Shown: positions 3,099 through 40,133 of the stretch, in pieces
How positions within the stretch are numbered: the first letter of the stretch is position 1
Layout of the letters: the number at the start of each line of letters is the position of its first letter
Source: a virus
Direction: 5' to 3' (one strand)
Virus record (IMG/VR): IMGVR_UViG_3300046652_000008
Span: 1-64,000 of that record
Length of the DNA stretch: 64,000 bases
The notes under the pieces: model-generated
The model's database searches: none
Told to the model about the DNA's origin: nothing
Seen by the model: only the letters and a program-made list of their open reading frames with translations
Made by a program: the position numbers and the translations under genes

Positions 3099-5489
3099 TT
3101 ATTTGGCTCCAATGTTAGGCGGGCTAGCAGTCGATACGCCCGCGATGTAGACGCCGGTGGCAATGGCAGGAGAGCTGCCCTGGAGCGTGAAGTCCGCTGT
3201 TGGTGAAGTAAGCAAAGGATCGGTAAACGGGCTTGAGTCCACGTTCGCGGCCCACCAGGAGTAATCCTGTTCCACACCGTTATAATAGAAAGTTCCGGTG
3301 CTAGAGTCGCTTCGGTAATATATGTTGTGGTCTATTGTCATCGCCGCTTGAGAGACGGACCATAAGATGTTCTTCGCGTTCAAAGCATAAAAGATGTTGT
3401 TCTTTATTTCTACCGAAGTTAGGTTGTCAACTAGCTGCATTTCAAGGGGGGCGTTACCTCCGACAGTCAGTGACTGCTGGTAGAACGTATTATTGTAAAT
3501 TTTAAGATCGACAGTTGCCGCTCCTGGGGTATCCTCAGATTCAGCAATTCCGTAATGGTTGCCGTAGATCAAGTTGTGGTGTATTGTAATTGCGATTGGT
3601 CGCGCTAGATTCTGCACCACGCCAATTCCCGCTAGTGTACTTGAATATAGAGTGTTGTTGTAGATAGATCCGCCATTGAAACGAGCAGAAATATCCGATC
3701 CAGCGATGGAACTGTATACAGTATTATCGTGAATCGTGACGTTGCTTGCATCCTGCCCCACGTACATTCCATGGCTGTATGGGTAAACACCATTAGTATC
3801 GTGGACCACGTTTCCGAAGATTGTAGTTCCATCATCGTAAACGCCGGGCCAAGTGACTATGATTCCGCCAGGGTATCCCCCGGAGAGCATCTGCCCTGGA
3901 TATAGGTCAGCCGTATAAGTAAGGGTGTTGTTGGAGACGACATTGCTCCCGCCCGCCAATTGTACTCCACCCGCTTGAGCATGGGAGATAGTGCTGCCGT
4001 TAACAATCGAGAAGCCTCCGGCAACTAAAACTGCAAGACCGTAAGTATATGAGATCGAACACCGTTGCATCGTTAGATGATCGGCGAAGATCATACCGTA
4101 TCCGTTCGACATTCTGAGATCAAGGTCTTGCACGGTTATGTTCGCTATCGACCCGTTTCCAAGCGGCCTTGTTCTCTGAGATGCCTCGATAGTGTGTCCA
4201 GATGGAGCAACATCACCCGCCAGCCGGATGTGTAATCGCGACGTTCCAGAATCATAATAGAAGGCTCCGGCAGGCAACGGAGCGAGACCGCTGGCAGGAG
4301 CAAGAGCCGTTCCGTTATCAACGACAAAGTATGGCTGAACCGCCGCAGTTGCGTAGTAATCCGTAAAGGTTCCGGTCGCCCCGCCCGGATAAGTCAGGCC
4401 GTATTGATAAATCTCCTGAATTTCCTCGTCCGTATACGGAGCCGGAGCAACAAACCACTCATCCCAGTTGGTAGTGGCGATTGATGTCCCATTGAACGTC
4501 AGCGAGTCTGCACTTGTCGTCAGGACAACGCCCCCAGACGTGGATACGTTGGTTTGCTTGACCCCATCAATCCAAAGAGATTTTTCATTGCTTCCGCCTG
4601 CCCCCGCCCGGTTGGTTCCGTTCCACCGAAATGCTATATGGTGCCAGCCCGATGTGGTGTAGGCGGCATTGGCTGAAAGAACCGCAGCGTTGGCGATAAG
4701 GACTTGTATTTGGTTAGCGGTCCCGCCAATTCGGAACCTCCACCCGCGAGTCGTTCCGTCTCCAAAATTGGCAATTGTCTGATAGGCGTTGCTCCCGGCT
4801 ACCAGATAGACCCATCCTCCGACCGTCGCAGCAGTGGTCGCGGCCTTGAATGGAAAGTTTGCTGAAAGCGAAGTGTAGCCCAAAGTTTGTACGTAGCAGC
4901 CAAAGGGAGTGTTGAGCGAGTAAATGCCTGCTGTTCCGAATCCGGCAGGATAACTGCCAGAGCGCGAACAAGATCCGCTGAGCCACGGTATATCGTTGCC
5001 ATTGGTACTTCCGTCAAGCGCTGGGCTGGATGCATCCTGAAACATCCACCACGAAGTTGGCTGGTCTCCGGTAGCGTCAGTTGTAAAGTCATGTCCGAGA
5101 GGATACGTTACGCTCTCCATTGTCCACGAACCGAAGATGTCGGCCCCCGTGATGATCGGCGCGACCCCCGCACCATACGCTCCGTAAGTGACATTTCCAA
5201 CGTTGTGCGTTAGTTGCTCCCGCCACAGCCCACCACGTTTGAAAGCGACGGACTGGCCAGAGGTGAGCGTGGTTCCGTTGACCTTGGCGATGGTCTGCCA
5301 CGGTGCGACGATCGTGCCGGCGTTGGAGTCCGCGCCGCCAGAGGAATCGACATAGTAAGTAAAGACCTGAGCAGATGATACGCCCACCACTGCATTCCCA
5401 GAAATCACAGTATGTCCAGTCGCCACGGTTTGGGCCTGTGCTGTCATTGTGAGACACAGGCAAATGGCAAGAAGAACCGAGAGTCTCAT
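3099..5489 (-). CDS. secreted LamG-like + right-handed beta-helix protein
   Basis: 796 residues with a signal peptide (MRLSVLLAICLCLTMTAQAQ). After DSSGGADSNAGT...PWQTIAKVNG, a start typical of parallel beta-helix proteins, there is a concanavalin/LamG-like insert (about 150-340: GGWVYLV, WHHIAFRWNG, LWIDGVKQ). From about residue 430 to 770 there are beta-helix rungs with Asn ladders (NITVQDLDLRMSNGYG, NVTIHDNTVYSS, VEIKNNIFYALN). Such folds are polysaccharide lyases/depolymerases or tailspikes. The ATG overlaps the upstream TGA. A signal peptide on a tailspike-like protein is unusual; the substrate is unknown. Confidence 0.85.
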   Translation of the reverse strand: MRLSVLLAICLCLTMTAQAQTVATGHTVISGNAVVGVSSAQVFTYYVDSSGGADSNAGTIVAPWQTIAKVNGTTLTSGQSVAFKRGGLWREQLTHNVGNVTYGAYGAGVAPIITGADIFGSWTMESVTYPLGHDFTTDATGDQPTSWWMFQDASSPALDGSTNGNDIPWLSGSCSRSGSYPAGFGTAGIYSLNTPFGCYVQTLGYTSLSANFPFKAATTAATVGGWVYLVAGSNAYQTIANFGDGTTRGWRFRIGGTANQIQVLIANAAVLSANAAYTTSGWHHIAFRWNGTNRAGAGGSNEKSLWIDGVKQTNVSTSGGVVLTTSADSLTFNGTSIATTNWDEWFVAPAPYTDEEIQEIYQYGLTYPGGATGTFTDYYATAAVQPYFVVDNGTALAPASGLAPLPAGAFYYDSGTSRLHIRLAGDVAPSGHTIEASQRTRPLGNGSIANITVQDLDLRMSNGYGMIFADHLTMQRCSISYTYGLAVLVAGGFSIVNGSTISHAQAGGVQLAGGSNVVSNNTLTYTADLYPGQMLSGGYPGGIIVTWPGVYDDGTTIFGNVVHDTNGVYPYSHGMYVGQDASNVTIHDNTVYSSIAGSDISARFNGGSIYNNTLYSSTLAGIGVVQNLARPIAITIHHNLIYGNHYGIAESEDTPGAATVDLKIYNNTFYQQSLTVGGNAPLEMQLVDNLTSVEIKNNIFYALNAKNILWSVSQAAMTIDHNIYYRSDSSTGTFYYNGVEQDYSWWAANVDSSPFTDPLLTSPTADFTLQGSSPAIATGVYIAGVSTASPPNIGAK

Positions 5490-6487
5490 TTGATTATCAC
5501 CCCAGGATGACGTGCGATGGCGGCAGGAGGATGTCCCACGACAGAGACCGTAGTGCCAGACCCACCTCCGTAATTGGCGACGTATACAGAGTTATTGTGT
5601 GCATCGAACGCTGAGCGAGACGGGCCATTAAATCCCGTGATCGTTCCAGTGATGGACGCACCCGAGTCCAGGATCACAAAGGTCGTGGTGGTGCTGTTGT
5701 TTGGGACATAAATGGAATAATTGTTCGAGTCATAAGTCACGTCGATAGGCCCGGAGAACCCGGAGATTGTATCCGTGAGTGTAGTGCCCGAGTCGGCGAT
5801 ACTGTAGACCTTGGAGGCTCCGTTCGCTATGTAGACCTTGTTATTGTTCGAGTCAAACGCGACAAGTGCCGGGCTTATCATCGAGGTCACCGTGCCCGTG
5901 ATGGACGTGCCCGAGTCTAGAACCACCGAAACGGTGGTGCTTGTATTGTTAGCGACATACAGGGAGTTGTTGTGACTGTCAAAGGCAATCCCGTATGGCC
6001 CCGTGAACCCGGTGATTGTGCCGGTAATCGTCGTCCCCGAGTCCGCTACCACAGACACGGTATTTGCCGTGTTATTCGTCACATACAACGAATTATTGTT
6101 CGAGTCGAAGGCGATCCCCTTCGGCTTACTAAACCCTGTGATTGTGGCCGTGACGGTTGTTCCCGAGTCCGGGATCACAGAGACGCTGTTCCCGAATTCG
6201 TTGATCACGTAAACGGTGTTGTTGTGTGGGTCGAATACGCAGCCGAATGGGGAGGTGCCCATCCCTGTGATCGTGGCCGATACCGAGGTGCCCGAGTCGG
6301 GGATCACATAAACGCTGGTCCCTGACAGGCTCGTCACGTAAAGAGAGTTGTTGTGGGAGTCGTAGCAGATGCCATAGGGAGCAGTCAGCCCGGTCACTGT
6401 GCCTGTAATCGCGGTTCCCTGCCCCCAGGCAAAGCCTGCGGTGAGGATTAACCCGGCAAGAGTCGTTGAGAGTTTCATGCTTCTCAT
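5486..6487 (-). CDS. secreted YVTN-type beta-propeller protein
   Basis: 333 residues with a signal peptide (MKLSTTLAGLILTAGFAWGQ). About seven repeats of roughly 42 residues follow, each with the core FDSHNNSLYV(T/A)N...VSV(I/V)xDSGTxxTGTITG. This is the YVTN/NHL-like propeller signature, consistent with one complete seven-bladed ring. The protein ends with a basic tail (HPPAAIARHPGVIIK). The start at 6487 overlaps the preceding TGA. Such propellers bind proteins or glycans outside the cell. The regular DNA repeats suggest blade duplication. Confidence 0.85.
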   Translation of the reverse strand: MRSMKLSTTLAGLILTAGFAWGQGTAITGTVTGLTAPYGICYDSHNNSLYVTSLSGTSVYVIPDSGTSVSATITGMGTSPFGCVFDPHNNTVYVINEFGNSVSVIPDSGTTVTATITGFSKPKGIAFDSNNNSLYVTNNTANTVSVVADSGTTITGTITGFTGPYGIAFDSHNNSLYVANNTSTTVSVVLDSGTSITGTVTSMISPALVAFDSNNNKVYIANGASKVYSIADSGTTLTDTISGFSGPIDVTYDSNNYSIYVPNNSTTTTFVILDSGASITGTITGFNGPSRSAFDAHNNSVYVANYGGGSGTTVSVVGHPPAAIARHPGVIIK

Positions 6488-19103: not shown

Positions 19104-19784
19104 TTAGACTGCATTCCCGCCACCCCACTGGTCTAGATTGTCTGGCACGCTCTGCGGAGGAGGCAATACCCGTACCGGAATCTCTTTATTGACCCGCTGC
19201 AACTGTTCGCGGATCAGCCGCGTAGACTCTTCTTTAATATCCTTGGCGGATAGATTCTCCTCGCTAAAGATGAATCTGTCCGGGAGTAGAACAACGTCTT
19301 CTCGGCCTGGATATTTCTTGACAATGCGTAGCGTCACCCCAGACTTACCCTTTCCATCCTTATTAAGATAGGTTTGAGAGTCAAGCAGCTTTCCAACGTA
19401 GCAGCAGACTTCGATAGCAGGCTTGGTTGGAAATACCTTTAGCTCCATAACGGTAGGAAACTCTTGCTGGAATTCCTCAAACATCTCATCAATGTCTCGC
19501 GGCTCGTCTAGGAACTGCTTAGGCGCTTCCGGCTCTTGCTTCTTCTTTGTTTTGCGAATCTCCACTACCTTGTCCATCACTGGTTCAATCTCGTCTCGAC
19601 TGATTGCCGCAGTAGGCTCACAAATCGAAATAGGCTCCAGTAGGCTAGGACCAGGGCCAAACAGATCCTCAAACAAGTCCAGGGCTCCGACGATCTTACC
19701 AGCTAGGATATCCATCCTATCTTTTGGCATACCGCCAAACCCGTTCTTGGTTAGAACCTTGATTACGAAAGTTTCTTTAGTCAT
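19104..19784 (-). CDS. hypothetical protein
   Basis: 226 residues. The N-terminal part is a small domain (VIKVLTKNGFGGMPKDRMDI), the middle is charged (RKTKKKQEPEAPKQFLDEPR), and the C-terminal half looks like a beta-containing domain (MELKVFPTKPAIEVCCYVGK, GVTLRIVKKYPGREDVVLLP). It ends with a Pro-rich tail, DNLDQWGGGNAV. The start overlaps the end of the upstream membrane-protein gene by 8 nt. No family was recognised. Confidence 0.7.
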   Translation of the reverse strand: MTKETFVIKVLTKNGFGGMPKDRMDILAGKIVGALDLFEDLFGPGPSLLEPISICEPTAAISRDEIEPVMDKVVEIRKTKKKQEPEAPKQFLDEPRDIDEMFEEFQQEFPTVMELKVFPTKPAIEVCCYVGKLLDSQTYLNKDGKGKSGVTLRIVKKYPGREDVVLLPDRFIFSEENLSAKDIKEESTRLIREQLQRVNKEIPVRVLPPPQSVPDNLDQWGGGNAV

Positions 19785-22611: not shown

Positions 22612-23073
22612 CTACCTACCGGACGAACCAAATCCGCCATCGCCGCGTTCAGTCTTGTCTAACTCTTGGACAACGCTGAACTTAACTGGTGTATACTGTG
22701 AAAATACTAGCTGTGCAACCCTATCGCCAATCTGCACATCATATGGGTTCCGCCCAACGTTCACTAGGATAACTCCGACCTCTCCACGATAGCCAGGATC
22801 AATCGTTCCAGGGCTGTTAGCCACGATGATACCCTTCGTTGCCATACCGCTCCGCGTGCGTATCTGCGCTTCCACTGGAGCACTGAACGACAGCACTAGG
22901 CCCGTCTTGACCACCTGAACCTCTGACGGGTTAATGTGGACGTTCTCCACCGCGTACAGGTCACAACCTGCATCGTCCTCATGCGCGTACATCGGTAGTT
23001 TGGCTAACTTATGCACTAGCTTAACGCCTACCGTCTCGATTAATGCCGTTTCTTCGTTTTTCTTCATTACCAT
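22612..23073 (-). CDS. dut: dUTPase (deoxyuridine 5'-triphosphate nucleotidohydrolase)
   Basis: About 153 residues; of three clustered ATGs I take 23073 because AAGGA lies 5 nt before it. It hydrolyses dUTP to dUMP + PPi, keeping uracil out of DNA and feeding dTMP synthesis. All five trimeric-dUTPase motifs are visible: I DAGCDLYA, II RTRSGMA, III NSPGTIDPGYRGEV with the catalytic Asp, IV GDRVAQLVF, V TERGDGGFGSSG (the Gly-rich C-terminal lid). It works with the dCMP/cytidine-deaminase-like protein at 54635 and the MazG-like protein at 33599. Confidence 0.96.
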   Translation of the reverse strand: MVMKKNEETALIETVGVKLVHKLAKLPMYAHEDDAGCDLYAVENVHINPSEVQVVKTGLVLSFSAPVEAQIRTRSGMATKGIIVANSPGTIDPGYRGEVGVILVNVGRNPYDVQIGDRVAQLVFSQYTPVKFSVVQELDKTERGDGGFGSSGR

Positions 23074-23396
23074 CCCCATCCTTCTTCAATTACTTGAAGT
23101 TTATCCCATTGCAGTTCGGCCCAATCTTCGTTTAGCTGAGTCTGCCTATCCGTCCACTCCCTGTAGTCTTTCGGTAGCTCTGGTTTCGGCGGAATTATAA
23201 CCCCGTACATCTTGAATATGATCCCGTCTATGTCCAAGCCATCCTTTGCTAGCGTTCCAGCCATCCCGCCACGATCAATGTCCGTATCTTCGTAGGGCGC
23301 TGCTAGCGCATCCAGTAACTCTCGTGTCAACACTCCAGCATCGTAAACCGCAAGTACCGATGCTTCAAAACTACTGAACGCTGCATTGTTTCCCAT
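23067..23396 (-). CDS. hypothetical protein
   Basis: 109 residues, acidic (MGNNAAFSSFEASVLAVYDA). Helices GVLTRELLDALAAPYED and a Trp-rich end (WAELQWDKLQVIEEGWGW). It overlaps the dUTPase start, so the two are coupled. A TG-N-TAGGAT extended -10 at 23419-23424 lies 22 nt upstream. No family was recognised. Confidence 0.65.
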   Translation of the reverse strand: MGNNAAFSSFEASVLAVYDAGVLTRELLDALAAPYEDTDIDRGGMAGTLAKDGLDIDGIIFKMYGVIIPPKPELPKDYREWTDRQTQLNEDWAELQWDKLQVIEEGWGW

Positions 23397-23424
23397 GGCT
23401 TTATCTCCTTACCTCTCTATCCTA

Positions 23425-24021
23425 GCACGCTCATGCTGGTCCGTGTTGAGTAATAGTTCAACGTGCTGTTACATTCTCCATGTGGCATTCCATTTGCTAT
23501 CCGTGCGTGCTGGAATGGCCGGGAGCAACCTAGCAAGCACTCTGTTAACTGGCTTCTAAGCACTCGGTCCCTCGAATGACATTTATCCATTAGACCCGTC
23601 GAAGCGAGTACAAATACCTCAAGGGTTAGCTTGCGCATAAATCATTATGCGGAGAGGGTTTGCCAATCCAGGTTTGTCTCACAGGCAGCAGACGAGGGTA
23701 TCCCGTCAGTCCTGAGCGATGCCCTGCTTTTATCATGCACAGAGGCAATCAAACAATAGAAGATTCATGCGCGAATCGCACTTTTCGAGTGTAGTTTTTG
23801 TGGCCGCACTCGACCTCGTTCTCTATTGCCCTGTATCCACCGGAGGTTTGGTGCTGCTCCTAGCTTTACCCAAACCACGACTCACCGTTTTGTCCTCAAC
23901 CGCGTGCGGATAAAGGACGTAAGTAGTTCCCTCTGCCCTATCAGGGCTGTCAATGGATACAGACTCTCAATGAATTCGGACATGCATTACCCTTCTCGTC
24001 TCAGCCTAAAATCGTGTAAGT
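23425..24021 (-). ncRNA. hairpin-rich non-coding stretch, candidate large structured RNA
   Basis: About 600 bp without a convincing gene. Short frames here lack ribosome sites. Many inverted repeats are visible: ATTCCA/TGGAAT near 23490-23515, CGCATAA/TTATGCG at 23635-23652, TCGAGTG/CACTCGA at 23785-23813. A four-way-junction-like unit is closed by CTGTATCCA (23831-23839) with TGGATACAG (23954-23962); inside are GGTTTGG/CCAAACC, GTCCT/AGGAC holding CCGC/GCGG, and GCCCT/AGGGC. Its position beside the phage tRNA island and its length recall GOLLD/ROOL-type ornate RNAs. The strand is assumed from the neighbours. Confidence 0.4.
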
Positions 24022-24225
24022 TTAACGCTCTGCTACTTTATATTTCTCGCAATACTTGTCAATAAAAGAATTACGATCTGCTATGTTTTTGTCTACAGTT
24101 TTCTTGAACTGTTTGGACAAACACCTGCCCAACTTGTTTCTAGGATCAATCCCGGTACTTCTTTGCTTGAAGTACACGTCGCCAGTGCTATTCTGTAGGC
24201 CCAACCGTTTGTCTAGGGTGCTCAT
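24022..24225 (-). CDS. small basic protein
   Basis: 67 residues, lysine/arginine-rich (MSTLDKRLGLQNSTGDVYFK, RNKLGRCLSKQFKKTVDKNI). Good ribosome site (AGGAGCATCCC). It starts inside the last 38 nt of the zinc-ribbon gene upstream. It may bind nucleic acid; there is no family evidence. Confidence 0.55.
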   Translation of the reverse strand: MSTLDKRLGLQNSTGDVYFKQRSTGIDPRNKLGRCLSKQFKKTVDKNIADRNSFIDKYCEKYKVAER

Positions 24226-24430
24226 GGGATGCTCCTGCTAAAGTTTTGGGTTTGTTCCACGAGTAGGACTGGCACATAGGACATCGTTTCGGTTCAAGTC
24301 GTATGTCACGTCTAAACCAAGAGTATCCGCAGCGTAAACAAGTCCTAGCAAATAGATCAAATCCCTCTCTATTTTTAGTATCGCACGATGTCACGTCGTA
24401 GTCAATGGGTTTTGAAAGATTATTTTCCAT
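24188..24430 (-). CDS. small zinc-ribbon protein
   Basis: 80 residues from the ATG at 24430 (MENNLSKPIDYDVTSCDTKN). A four-Cys ribbon is visible, TCLRCGYSWFRRD...KRCPMCQSYSW (CxxC-x15-CxxC), the type seen in small DNA/RNA-binding phage proteins. The C-terminal 20 residues are polar. It is coupled to both neighbours by overlap. Confidence 0.6.
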   Translation of the reverse strand: MENNLSKPIDYDVTSCDTKNREGFDLFARTCLRCGYSWFRRDIRLEPKRCPMCQSYSWNKPKTLAGASHEHPRQTVGPTE

Positions 24431-24951: not shown

Positions 24952-25026
24952 TGGCACCGGAGGAGGGAATCGAACCCCCGTTTGAGGTTTTGGAGACCAC
25001 CGTAATGACCACTATACTACTCCGAT
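24952..25026 (-). tRNA. tRNA-Trp(CCA)
   Basis: Acceptor ATCGGAG pairs with CTCCGGT, followed by discriminator G and encoded CCA. Anticodon loop CTCCAAA gives CCA; the anticodon stem has one T-T mismatch. T-arm GGGGG-TTCGATT-CCCTC. It begins 3 nt after the end of the HNH gene. Confidence 0.9.
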
Positions 25027-25028
25027 GA

Positions 25029-25697
25029 TTATATGATAGCATTTTTCTTCGGCCCCGGTTGCCACCCTCCAAAGAGTCCATCATCATACGCTTTTTTCAC
25101 GTATGCGCTTATAAAATCCCAGGCCATAATTGGCATAGCGCCCCTTATATAATTGCACCTGCGACAGCATGGAACCACGTTGTCAATGGTATGCCCAAGT
25201 GAGTTATCTATTCTATCAAGCCCCATCATCAGGGGAGAGCTATCGCCACAGTACTTGCACCCATTGATTATCATGTCAATAACCGACTGCTCGCTAATAT
25301 GCGGATCGCCAAAACCATGCTTTATGTCCCACGATTTGCAGTTTGTGACTATCCAGTAAGCCCTATGCGCCGGATTGGTCCTAGATATAGAATTTAGCCT
25401 TCTTTTCCTGTCTAGAGCCTCTTCATATATTCCATTTCGCCTGCTCGTCTCTAGGTCTCTAATAGATTCGCATTTCTTGCACATCGAACAGAAGTATTTC
25501 TTACCACACCGAGACCTAGTTTTGTGAAATTGGTCTGCCGTTTTTTCCTCAAAGCAAACAGAGCATTTGCGTATCGCCCTATTTTCCTTGTAATCAACAA
25601 CGGACGATATGCACTTACCTTTGTTTCTGTAGTAGTATTCCCTACGGTATCTTCTGTCGCGGTCTAACTTTGATTCTTTTATCCCTGTATCTTCCAT
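25029..25697 (-). CDS. HNH homing endonuclease
   Basis: 222 residues. An N-terminal basic region is followed by a zinc cluster (KCSVCFEEKTADQFHKTRSR, FCSMCKKCESIRDLETSRRN). The C-terminal HNH core reads GCKYCGDSSPLMMGLDRIDN, then SLGHTIDNVVPCCRRCNYIR with the catalytic D-R/N and paired Cys ligands. Phage enzymes of this class are usually selfish, cutting alleles that lack them. It stands between an intact tRNA-Trp (24952-25026) and a 5' fragment of another tRNA with the same anticodon, as expected for insertion into a tRNA gene. Confidence 0.9.
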   Translation of the reverse strand: MEDTGIKESKLDRDRRYRREYYYRNKGKCISSVVDYKENRAIRKCSVCFEEKTADQFHKTRSRCGKKYFCSMCKKCESIRDLETSRRNGIYEEALDRKRRLNSISRTNPAHRAYWIVTNCKSWDIKHGFGDPHISEQSVIDMIINGCKYCGDSSPLMMGLDRIDNSLGHTIDNVVPCCRRCNYIRGAMPIMAWDFISAYVKKAYDDGLFGGWQPGPKKNAII

Positions 25698-25744
25698 CTA
25701 CTTTTAGTATTTCACATCCAAAGCAGCAAGTCAATAAGACAACG

Positions 25745-25795
25745 GAGGTTCGCGGGTTTGGAGTCCGCAGTCCTGAACCACTAGACGACCCTGAT
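25745..25795 (-). pseudogene. 5' half of a tRNA with anticodon CCA
   Basis: Acceptor-like ATCAGGG, D-arm (GTCT...GGAC) and an anticodon arm GCGGA-CTCCAAA-CCCGC (one A-C mismatch) are present. No T-arm or 3' acceptor follows; the sequence runs into the HNH leader. It is therefore a truncated tRNA, probably Trp, split when the HNH gene arrived. Confidence 0.55.
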
Positions 25796-25816
25796 AACTT
25801 AATCATAACACGAAAC

Positions 25817-25893
25817 TGGAGGGCATAATTCGGGTCGAACGGATATTGACGGCTCCACAGGCCGCCGCATTTAACCAGTTATGCTATACGCCC
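25817..25893 (-). tRNA. tRNA-His(GTG)
   Basis: Acceptor GGGCGTA pairs with TATGCCC, then T and encoded CCA. D-stem GCAT/ATGC is perfect, anticodon arm GCGGC-CTGTGGA-GCCGT gives GTG. The T-arm has one C-A mismatch. The -1 base is A and base 73 is T, not the G-1:C73 pair usual for bacterial tRNA-His. Confidence 0.88.
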
Positions 25894-25899
25894 TAAGCA

Positions 25900-25988
25900 T
25901 GGTGCCAGCAGATGGAGTTGAGCCATCGGGGAGGCTTAGCCTCAACGGGTTTACAGCCCGCCCCCGCCCACTACGGGACTATACTGGC
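25900..25988 (-). tRNA. tRNA-Tyr(GTA)
   Basis: A class II tRNA of 89 nt. Acceptor GCCAGTA pairs with TGCTGGC, then A and encoded CCA. Anticodon loop CTGTAAA gives GTA. It has a long variable arm with stem GAGGC/GCCTC, as expected for tyrosine tRNAs. T-arm GATGG-CTCAACT-CCATC. Confidence 0.9.
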
Positions 25989-25991
25989 AAA

Positions 25992-26115
25992 AGAGAGGGA
26001 GGCCGCATGAGTCGAACATGCTGTTCCTAGAAAACTGCTCCGGCTGCACATCCCATAAAATCTCGCGCATGGACCTTTTAATACTCGCTGTTCCGTAGAT
26101 GCCTAGCGTCTCTCT
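25992..26115 (-). ncRNA. unresolved tRNA-like or structured RNA
   Basis: AGAGAG at the 5' side can pair with CTCTCT at the 3' side, enclosing about 110 nt. Near the 3' end a canonical T-arm (GCATG-TTCGACT-CATGC) is present, but the bases after it (GGCCTCC) have no GGAGGCC partner and no CCA follows. It may be an interrupted tRNA or another tRNA-like element; I could not fold it into a standard cloverleaf. Confidence 0.3.
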
Positions 26116-26158
26116 ACCCTTATTGGCGCGTCTATTCGGGCAAGTCCACTAACTAAGT

Positions 26159-26605
26159 TTACGCCTTCATGAACGCCTTAATTGCAAAAATAGCATCAAC
26201 AACGTCCTGGGTCAGCGGAACCACCGTATTTGACGGAGTAGATAAAGCGCAGAACGCAGGATTCGTCATGATATCAGTACAAAGCTCTAACCCTGCCGCC
26301 GTAACCTTATCTTTACTGAGGGGAACGGGAGCTGCCGGAATAACCGTCTTTCCAGGTGTTGGCGTTCCGCCTAAAACATTGGCCGTGAGTGCTTCCTGGA
26401 CACTGACAGTGTGGGTACTCCACGCTGGATATCCATCTAACCCACGAACAACGCAGTCATAGGTAAAACTAGGACCAGTGATATCCCCATACCCAATAAC
26501 CCAATTCTTTACGGGCATATCGTAGTTGAATTGTCCTGAAGCCGATACAGTTGGGAACTTATAAAAGTTCGACAACGGAACTGGAGAAATTACGGAATTT
26601 TTCAT
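26159..26605 (-). CDS. hypothetical protein inside the tRNA island
   Basis: 148 residues starting at the ATG at 26605 (MKNSVISPVPLSNFYKFPTV), with ribosome site AAGGAAACAAG. Beta-rich N-terminal half (FNYDMPVKNWVIGYGDITGP, SFTYDCVVRGLDGYPAWSTH) and a Pro/Thr linker before a helical end. It looks like a small virion-decoration or moron-type product, but no family was recognised. tRNA genes flank it on both sides. Confidence 0.6.
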   Translation of the reverse strand: MKNSVISPVPLSNFYKFPTVSASGQFNYDMPVKNWVIGYGDITGPSFTYDCVVRGLDGYPAWSTHTVSVQEALTANVLGGTPTPGKTVIPAAPVPLSKDKVTAAGLELCTDIMTNPAFCALSTPSNTVVPLTQDVVDAIFAIKAFMKA

Positions 26606-26641
26606 CTTGTTTCCTTCAATCAACCAACATAAATCGTTATT

Positions 26642-26706
26642 TGGGCGTGTTGAGATCGTCAACGTTTCACGGGTTCACCCGTGCGTCCTTTACTAGACGA
26701 ACGCCC
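26642..26706 (-). tRNA. degenerate tRNA-like element
   Basis: Acceptor GGGCGTT faces CACGCCC, and a D-arm GTCT/GGAC is present. The anticodon arm is CACGG-GTGAAC-CCGTG, so the loop has 6 nt (or 4 with a sixth pair). The T-arm is only GTTGA-CGATC-TCAAC. Total length is 65 nt and no CCA follows. If the loop lost one A the anticodon would be GAA (Phe). Confidence 0.35.
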
Positions 26707-26708
26707 CA

Positions 26709-26783
26709 TCCAGATGGCGGGATTTGAACCCGCGACCTACTCCCCTATTGGGGAGCTGCTCTACCAGACTGAGCTACGTCCAG
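26709..26783 (-). tRNA. tRNA-like element with shortened anticodon loop
   Basis: D-arm GCTC...GAGC and T-arm GCGGG-TTCAAAT-CCCGC are canonical, the acceptor CTGGACG/CATCTGG pairs with two wobbles and one mismatch. The anticodon arm is CTCCC-CAATAG-GGGAG, a 6-nt loop without U33. No CCA is encoded. The amino-acid identity cannot be read. Confidence 0.5.
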
Positions 26784-26793
26784 ATGTTTATCA

Positions 26794-26872
26794 TGGCTCT
26801 CGGCCCAGGATTCGGACCTGGAACCAACACTTTAACAGAGTGCCGCTCTACCTGAATTTGAGCTAGCCGAGA
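26794..26872 (-). tRNA. tRNA-Asn(GTT)
   Basis: Perfect acceptor TCTCGGC/GCCGAGA followed by G and encoded CCA. D-stem GCTC/GAGC, anticodon arm GCACT-CTGTTAA-AGTGT gives GTT. T-arm CCAGG-TCCGAAT-CCTGG. It is the first tRNA of the island in transcription order. Confidence 0.94.
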
Positions 26873-38393: not shown

Positions 38394-38860
38394 CGGATTC
38401 GTTTTTTATTTTTTATCAAAACCAGTGGAGGGGGTAGCCCCAATTTAAGCCTCCGCAATCATGCCACCACCCCTTTCGCCTTCCTTTCGCCGTTCGCCTT
38501 TCCTTCACACCCATCATAAGATAGGACAGATATCTATGTAATGCGTTCGTATGGGGAACAAACGGCAAAGACGAAGAAAAAGCGATATCGCCTTCCCTTC
38601 TCCCTATGCTTCCCACCCTCCCGCTTTCGCCTGTGCTTCGCACTCACTAGTGCATTCATAGTAGTACTCTTGGGGGGCGAACAAAAGGCGAAGCGACAGT
38701 ACGAGTACTATGTTTTACATACTAATACGTTTCAGTATTTCACTTATGCTTGATTCTGTACGGTGAGCATACCTGCCTATGTGTATGATTCGACTATGGT
38801 TTCATTATTTTCCGCTTCTTTCGGTATGCAAACAGAACGCGATGAGGGCAGCCCATTCCA

Positions 38861-38923: not shown

Positions 38924-39291
38924 GAGAAGCAATAGTATGGCCTAAGGCTATTGGTATGAGTGACATGCGAAGCATAGCAGCTCGAAGTGAGTGCATGAGA
39001 ACAAAGGGCGAAGGTCACAGGCTAGCATAAAGGTATTAGCATGGGGGTACTGCGAAGAGACGGAGAACACGAACAGACGACGAAACGAGCATAAGCTTGT
39101 GCACCTATATAAGTAGATACAAGTGATGCAGCAGAGTGAGAGCGGGATTGACTCCAGACGCCTCGGTCTAATAGTTAGACAAGAGATAGGCACCCAGGCG
39201 TAATATACTTGGACAGGCACGGCATGAGAAACTTGGAGCACCACGAACAAAAAGCGAACAGGGAAGATAGCCGAACAGATGGCGAAAACCC

Positions 39292-39327
39292 GGTAACGCT
39301 TACCGCATGGTAAATCTTACCCGGTAA
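39292..39327. repeat. tandem GGTAA-N3-TTACC palindromes
   Basis: GGTAACGCTTACC (39292-39304) and GGTAAATCTTACC (39309-39321) are 13-bp dyads with centres 17 bp apart; a further GGTAA half-site follows at 39323-39327. Repeated dyads at this spacing are typical operator or replication-initiator sites. Confidence 0.6.
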
Positions 39328-40133
39328 GTATTCCCGAAGATAGTTATCTTGAAGGCATAGCGTATCAATAGAATCAACAGCTTAGGGAGTGGCAACAGCA
39401 TTGCTCTTATCATACCGTCCGACGAACTCACACGGACCCGCGAAACGACTGGACAGCCAGAAAAGCCAAGCGCGGATTGACAAAAGAATCAGACCGGACC
39501 CCAAACGCGATAGCAGGATCTAGATTGGGTTTCATGGGAAGCCGAGAGAATCACCCGCAGACATCCCCGCCGTCAGCCACTCCGCAAAGAGACCAGCAAT
39601 GGTTCAGGCAATAGGCATAGTGGATCAACAAGCCGAGTGAAGATCAGAGCCAGCCCACACCGCACGAGTAGGAACGAAATCCCCCGAGCGGCAATGAAAT
39701 GACAGGGTTAAACGCAGGATACCCTAGTGGTACAGTAAGCCGATACCCGAGATGCCAGCACGATGCAATAACAGCATCGAAACATCGCACGCCAGCAGCA
39801 CAGGACTAAGCCCCTGCTAGCGTCCTACCAAGAGGATACATGGATACCACCGGAACGCATGGAAACGCGGAGAAACGATCCTAGACTCAGCACGACCCCA
39901 CACAGGAGACGAGCAGATTCTAACCGAGACACAAACCGATCGAACAAACGAAAACGACTTGACGAGCCAACACGTTAACCATTAAAGAGCGGACAACGGC
40001 ATACGGGTAAACTCCGAATTGCACGCGCCTATCAATAATGCTAAATCGCAACGCGCCCAACGTGTTAGCCCGTCCAGTCTATTAGCTGCATTCAAACCGA
40101 GTACAGCTTATAGGCTGATAAGGACAGCCCACC

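Follow-up and report, generated by a model that had tools for sequence, protein, structure and literature searches.

The non-coding gap at positions 23397-24021 of the window, that is, of the whole 64,000-nt stretch analysed, which belongs to a 94,919-base IMG/VR virus record, probably carries a tailed-phage gene for a large structured non-coding RNA that stands alone. This RNA would belong to a new family, whose first two members are the copy in the window and a homologue on a second contig (L005). The comparison of the two shows that a fold is kept by compensatory change over about 400 nt: helix P1 closes a body in which a four-way domain is accompanied by a variable arm and a conserved core. 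In both sequences the element has what defines a large structured phage RNA: it is non-coding, several hundred nucleotides long and folded with compensatory changes.

The minus strand carries most of the genes from position 1 to about 39 kb, including those of the portal, the terminase, the dUTPase (named by its match) and SSB. The gap spans 625 nt, between the stop codon of gene 24022-24225 (minus strand) and the start codon of gene 23067-23396 (minus strand). Its longest open reading frames encode 73 aa on the minus strand and 79 aa on the plus strand, the latter overlapping the next gene, and neither is retained in the L005 homologue. This bears out the claim of an earlier reading, made from the sequence only, that no plausible gene is present there. 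The same reading described the genome as tightly packed; this holds for the minus-strand ORFs, whose median spacing is 8 nt, but a larger ORF-free gap is found at 39251-40133. The latter (883 nt, between the minus- and the plus-strand gene blocks; folding z -2.27 on the plus and -2.10 on the minus strand) could represent an origin, a further RNA or a region of divergent control. Elsewhere in the record, outside the window, a stretch of 650 nt (L058:7193-7842, at about 71.2-71.8 kb of the record) is free of ORFs reaching 85 aa.

L005, a 25-kb contig with a terminase 85% identical to that of the window, was one of the five loci given by the terminase search, and its gene order matches the window here. 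The homologous non-coding gap corresponds to L005:557-1264 and lies directly upstream of the dUTPase gene. When the two gaps were compared by blastn, 77 bases were aligned at 82%; positions 23742-23667 and L005:850-925 are 82% identical, whereas the identity over the 5' domain of the RNA is 59%. In the alignment of the two sequences (A1), conserved blocks are interrupted by diverged blocks and by insertions of various lengths; since the MAFFT alignment A3 was weak at the 5' end, A5 was used instead. A six-frame comparison of the two gaps revealed no kept frame. In fact, six frame pairs aligned (32.7-58.2 bits), five of which run across stop codons, while the remaining one comprises 25 residues only; six such pairs, distributed on both strands, are what DNA likeness would give. 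A protein frame conserved across homologues, which the sequence-only reading had named among the observations that would speak against an RNA, was thus absent from the comparison with L005.

The features of the candidate RNA are listed below from 5' to 3'. Its 5' end was inferred from the promoter-like site, and at its 3' end the RNA can extend at most as far as the ribosome-binding site of gene 23067-23396.

24035..24062, minus strand: promoter-like sequence TTGACA-16-TAAAGT, within the 3'-terminal part of gene 24022-24225
23411..24028, minus strand: candidate RNA gene (non-coding gap, homologue of L005:557-1264, with conserved 5' structure)
23735..23987, minus strand: proposed pseudoknot, AUGCAUG 23987-23981 with UGUGCAU 23741-23735
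23652..23968, minus strand: body closed by P1 (23968-23964 with 23656-23652)
23833..23960, minus strand: four-way domain, P2 (23960-23951 / 23842-23833) with branches P2a, P3 (23915-23894) and P4 (23876-23845)
23753..23829, minus strand: arm P5 (23829-23823 / 23759-23753), with P5b (23781-23767) and a variable interior
23661..23747, minus strand: core B, P6 (23747-23744 / 23664-23661) and hairpin 23706-23692
23590..23650, minus strand: hairpins P7 (23650-23635) and P9 (23613-23590)
23411..23589, minus strand: 3' part, about 190 nt, with no conserved structure in the window-L005 comparison

Twelve helices, totalling 74 pairs, were picked by us from the RNAalifold result and from a list of helices with changes on both sides. 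All 74 pairs are standard in both phages (148 cells) and 20 of them are changed on both sides, so that covariation, one of the tests proposed by the sequence-only reading itself, is present between the window and L005. This result was reached by none of 500 letter shuffles, and pairing falls to 38-47% when the partners are slid by 1-3 columns. It should be considered that the pair counts represent one evolutionary comparison between two sequences and that the set was fitted to these same sequences; the count therefore leans towards structure, and the consensus-fold controls described below weigh more. When all helices with five or more pairs and a both-side change were listed without bias (20 in total), P1, P2, P4, P5 and P7 ranked highest and the pseudoknot came sixth; the top score (11.0) compares with shuffle maxima of 8.7 on average and 12.0 at the highest, and the best scores are therefore within the reach of shuffles.

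P1 keeps all of its five pairs, four of which are changed on both sides. In the four-way domain 29 of 29 pairs are kept in both phages (7 changed on both sides); P4 bears the near-invariant motif GGGUAA-RGC-YAGGRG-GCACC, whereas the shape of P2a is not conserved. The closed four-branch unit previously noticed at 23831-23962, whose arms (23831-23839 / 23954-23962) are complementary at 9 of 9 positions, indeed corresponds to one conserved domain. The P5 arm, 39 nt longer in L005, has 7/7 pairs kept in P5 and 4/4 in P5b, with two both-side changes in each. The best conserved run, UGCAUGAUAAAAGCAGGGCAUC, is enclosed by P6 in core B, where both-side changes affect 2 of the 4 pairs of P6 and 1 of the 5 pairs of the hairpin. 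P7 (6/6 kept) shows one both-side change, and P9 (7/7 kept) two one-sided changes only. The pseudoknot, with 7/7 pairs kept in both phages, one changed on both sides and the others invariant, likely joins the 5' leader and the core, although this assignment, made from the two sequences, is weaker than the secondary structure. Two further pairings (64-68 with 394-398 and 89-93 with 366-370), with one both-side change each, were omitted as unproven.

When RNAalifold was applied to alignment A1, 117 pairs were predicted, 37 of which are changed on both sides. With respect to column shuffles preserving the classes of gaps and identity, the 5' domain (columns 31-440) gave -75.7 as compared to -34.6 ± 5.2, with 0 of 60 shuffles equally good. 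In a separate run with coding controls, its z was -8.87 on the minus strand. The controls, eight orthologous coding stretches from the same two phages treated alike, gave z values between -1.33 and +0.48 on the minus strand and between -2.06 and +0.77 on the plus strand. These controls are 69-79% identical between the window phage and L005, as compared to 59% for the RNA, indicating that the sequence of the RNA changes faster than that of its neighbours while the fold stays. The signal was also observed in the P5 region (z -8.82) and in the four-way domain (z -4.63, 0/200 shuffles). The 3' part gave a z of +0.21 (105/200 shuffles equally good), and +1.25 in the run with the coding controls.

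The rival explanation that survives best, although we consider it rather unlikely, is that the conserved sequence is a cis-acting leader (a long 5' UTR, riboswitch-like or processing element) of the downstream 109-aa, dUTPase and SSB genes. The stretch ends right before a ribosome-binding site of the same strand in the window and before the dUTPase gene in L005, and scans of both regions found no terminator-like site, so that none separates the RNA from the next gene. However, the next gene is not the same in the two phages: the 109-aa gene, which stands between the RNA and the dUTPase gene in the window, is missing in L005. Since the RNA is followed by the 109-aa gene in one phage and by the dUTPase gene in the other, it does not go with one particular downstream gene. 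In addition, the 109-aa gene is present without the RNA in L002-L004, and the dUTPase gene in L006 and L007. Moreover, structure is conserved at the 5' end, a long way from the start codon, while the part next to the gene is unconserved; the approximately 400 conserved nucleotides are long for a leader, and no riboswitch or leader family was found at gathering score. As for the 109-aa protein of 23067-23396 (minus strand), it begins with MGNNAAF, has no Pfam family and is 36-67% identical to proteins of three phage contigs, the gene surroundings being different in each.

A promoter scan of 22900-24400 gave one site, as compared to 1.7 expected from shuffles. In L005, where 4 sites were found and 1.9 expected, a promoter-like TTGCTA-17-TATACT at 517-545 occupies the matching relative place. 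By number these sites are near chance; it is their shared place alone that makes them notable, and this is suggestive. Weighing against a stand-alone RNA are the small sample (two sequences, two phages), the 3' third without signal, the lack of a terminator-like site and this chance-level promoter count.

A different possibility, which we regard as improbable, is that the RNA is a very divergent GOLLD, ROOL or other Rfam family member missed by the models. It is of similar length, comes from phages and lies near tRNA genes, and the phage sample behind the Rfam models was limited. On the other hand, when the window region was run through cmscan with the 4227 families of Rfam 15 (E up to 10), the check suggested along with the sequence-only reading, no GOLLD, ROOL or intron was detected, and the L005 region gave no matches, so that neither phage shows a match to a large RNA family. 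Near the window RNA only chance-level matches were seen; the single match within it, to Pistol and on the plus strand, reached 18.9 bits where 34.5 are required. At gathering score the matches within the window were tRNAs only; no self-splicing introns, riboswitches, tmRNA, RNase P or other Rfam families reached it. Whole-record searches were negative as well. The ROOL model (RF03087, cut-off 99.1 bits) matched 0 of 15 records, including G000, and 0 of 5 virus records, while in the same search it gave 130.4 bits in plasmid pMP118; GOLLD (RF02032, cut-off 150 bits), a model run with no true positive control, was above the cut-off in 0 of 10 records and gave no match in G000 and G004. The ROOL consensus, read by eye, has no motif order in common with this RNA.

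These results suggest that the RNA of the window and L005 belongs to neither the ROOL nor the GOLLD family, although the kind, a large structured phage RNA near tRNA genes, fits. The earlier statement that the stretch has the size and place of GOLLD and ROOL RNAs thus stands as far as a large structured non-coding phage RNA near tRNA genes is concerned, but not as to the families, since neither model matches. In PMC12286853, ROOL is described as a large RNA of phages, prophages and plasmids, often near tRNA genes, multi-branched and with pseudoknots, and GOLLD as a large phage RNA near tRNAs, whose 3' half is conserved and whose 5' half is less so. The RNA reported here is comparable to both in size, setting and complexity. 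It resembles ROOL in being large (the ROOL model has 574 positions), phage-borne and near tRNA genes (931 nt from tRNA-Trp in the window); it differs in that the ROOL model matches neither phage and in that its conservation is limited to the 5' 400 nt or so. With GOLLD, as portrayed in that paper, it shares the setting and the division into one conserved and one less conserved part, but the conserved part is the 3' one in GOLLD and the 5' one here (z -8.87, as compared to +1.25 for the free 3' part). Abundant large transcripts without coding sequence have been detected by RNA-seq in staphylococcal phage K (PMC9241854) and vibriophage ICP1 (PMC7567579), and in the accessible sections of these papers the authors liken them to GOLLD and ROOL by position or length. 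As far as those sections go, such RNAs are known from RNA-seq and no fold is given for them, whereas ours is known from covariation; blastn in the phage collection gave no relevant match for this comparison. Rfam 15 does not contain this RNA and, as the RNA is nameless, a text search of the literature cannot prove it unpublished.

We consider it highly improbable that the conserved element acts as DNA, such as an origin, a packaging or a recombination site, with the hairpins serving as cruciforms or protein sites. Inverted repeats are present: ten pairs of 7-12 nt were found in the gap, in line with the at least seven counted by the sequence-only reading, the repeat finder giving no chance expectation. 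The other strand also has a consensus-fold signal (z -5.19 for the 5' domain). Nevertheless, the gene strand has the stronger signal, and in the four-way domain the signal is confined to it (z -4.63 as compared to -0.67, with 41/200 shuffles equally good on the other strand). Moreover, several pairs switch from Watson-Crick to G-U on the minus strand, changes that would be mismatches on the other strand. For core B the z values were -3.17 (RNA strand) and -4.46 (opposite strand), and the strand is therefore not decided by this element.

The folding of the single sequence was analysed on 621 nt of the gap and gave z -2.47 on the minus strand (0/20 shuffles equally good) and -1.75 on the plus strand (1/20). 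The 300-nt 5' tile had z -2.73, within a set of 65 minus-strand window tiles with a mean of -0.31 and a minimum of -3.00, while the 3' tile of the gap had -0.07. Single-sequence stability is just moderately unusual and alone would not prove an RNA. The lowest values among the 65 tiles were observed at 3601-3900 (minus strand, -3.00) and 38401-38700 (minus strand, -2.78). This moderate stability would suit a gene in decay, or unused DNA in which hairpins arose by chance, an explanation that is hardly credible in view of the 20 both-side changes with all pairs kept and of a z of -8.87 where coding controls are about zero.

No third copy was found by pattern and protein-based scans of viral_contigs, by the pattern scan of genome_contigs or by blastn in phages and plasmids. 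The blastn search in phages gave no further copy with the window RNA and, with the L005 copy, four records only (E 0.7, 27-nt matches), which were rejected as chance; in plasmids, part of the RNA (23560-24021) was used as query and gave no copy. One pattern scan of viral_contigs returned the contig of L005 alone; the others gave 9 and 6 further stretches with no more of the RNA sequence around them, and a 22-nt match in L035 was too close to the contig end for judging. None of the four stretches from genome_contigs contained the rest of the RNA. Relatives were also reached through the 109-aa gene (3 loci), the terminase (5 loci, and 11 when an alignment was used), the dUTPase (7 loci) and gene 19104-19784 (1 locus); among these loci, with the models applied to L041-L046 of the seven dUTPase ones, the RNA was found on the contig of L005 only. 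The covariance model of the core (R1) detected the RNA in 2 of 24 sources, i.e., the window and L005; among 16 related records it hit a single one, that of L005 (G004), the other 15 giving none. The model of the four-way domain (R2) detected 2 of the same 24 sources, and the window alone among 13 sources, 12 of which are pieces of G000, G005 and G006. G005, G006 and G010 (terminase 42-43% identical, about 94-103 kb) gave no RNA, with fragments and filters leaving room for misses. A counterpart near the tRNAs of G005 and G006 was considered and rejected: by eye, short ORFs are visible in those gaps, which match each other at 87% and do not match this RNA. The two records also share ORF-poor stretches, 79-92% mutually identical (L063:18941-19500 with L066; L064:14111-14808 and 5067-5685 with L065).

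The tRNA genes of the window form a cluster on the same strand as the RNA.

24952..26872, minus strand: tRNA cluster, upstream of the RNA, with Trp, His, unassigned and Asn genes and a Tyr-like gene missed by ARAGORN

The gap had been placed beside the tRNA island, which is correct in that it is near tRNA genes; however, the closest one, Trp at 24952, is 931 nt away and small ORFs intervene. In L005 the contig starts 556 nt before the RNA, so nearness to tRNAs cannot be judged there. The Tyr-like gene (25904-25988, minus strand) has a long variable arm and a GTA anticodon read by eye, and its only Rfam match, to tRNA-Sec, stayed below the threshold (34.3 of 47 bits). The gene at 26708-26784 (minus strand), whose anticodon was unassigned by ARAGORN, is a good Rfam tRNA (47.9 bits), and 25735-25800 (minus strand) resembles by eye a decayed tRNA gene, without Rfam match.

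If the gap encodes a stand-alone RNA, this would be read on the minus strand from about position 24028, as are the genes and tRNAs around it, and it may have a promoter of its own, the promoter-like site within the last part of the preceding gene. The RNA would presumably be transcribed during infection and may be independent of the downstream mRNA, as suggested by the different downstream genes of the two phages. By likeness to ROOL and GOLLD, for which this has been proposed, it might act in trans as a folded RNA particle; candidate roles are those of a scaffold or of a ribosome- or tRNA-handling RNA, possibly self-assembling; ROOL itself is characterised by an RNA-only homo-oligomeric nanocage.

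Only a few large structured RNAs are without a known function; the phage ones, ROOL and GOLLD, are recent puzzles. An unrelated family in the same genomic setting would represent an independent case, and features common to unrelated families would hint at their purpose. The two sequences yield a fold that is directly testable by probing, RNA-seq or cryo-EM. We tentatively put forward, while judging it unlikely, that this RNA is a third, independently evolved family of 'ornate' phage RNAs, forming RNA-only particles and encoded near tRNA genes like ROOL and GOLLD. If this were true, such particles would be a recurrent solution of phages rather than two oddities.
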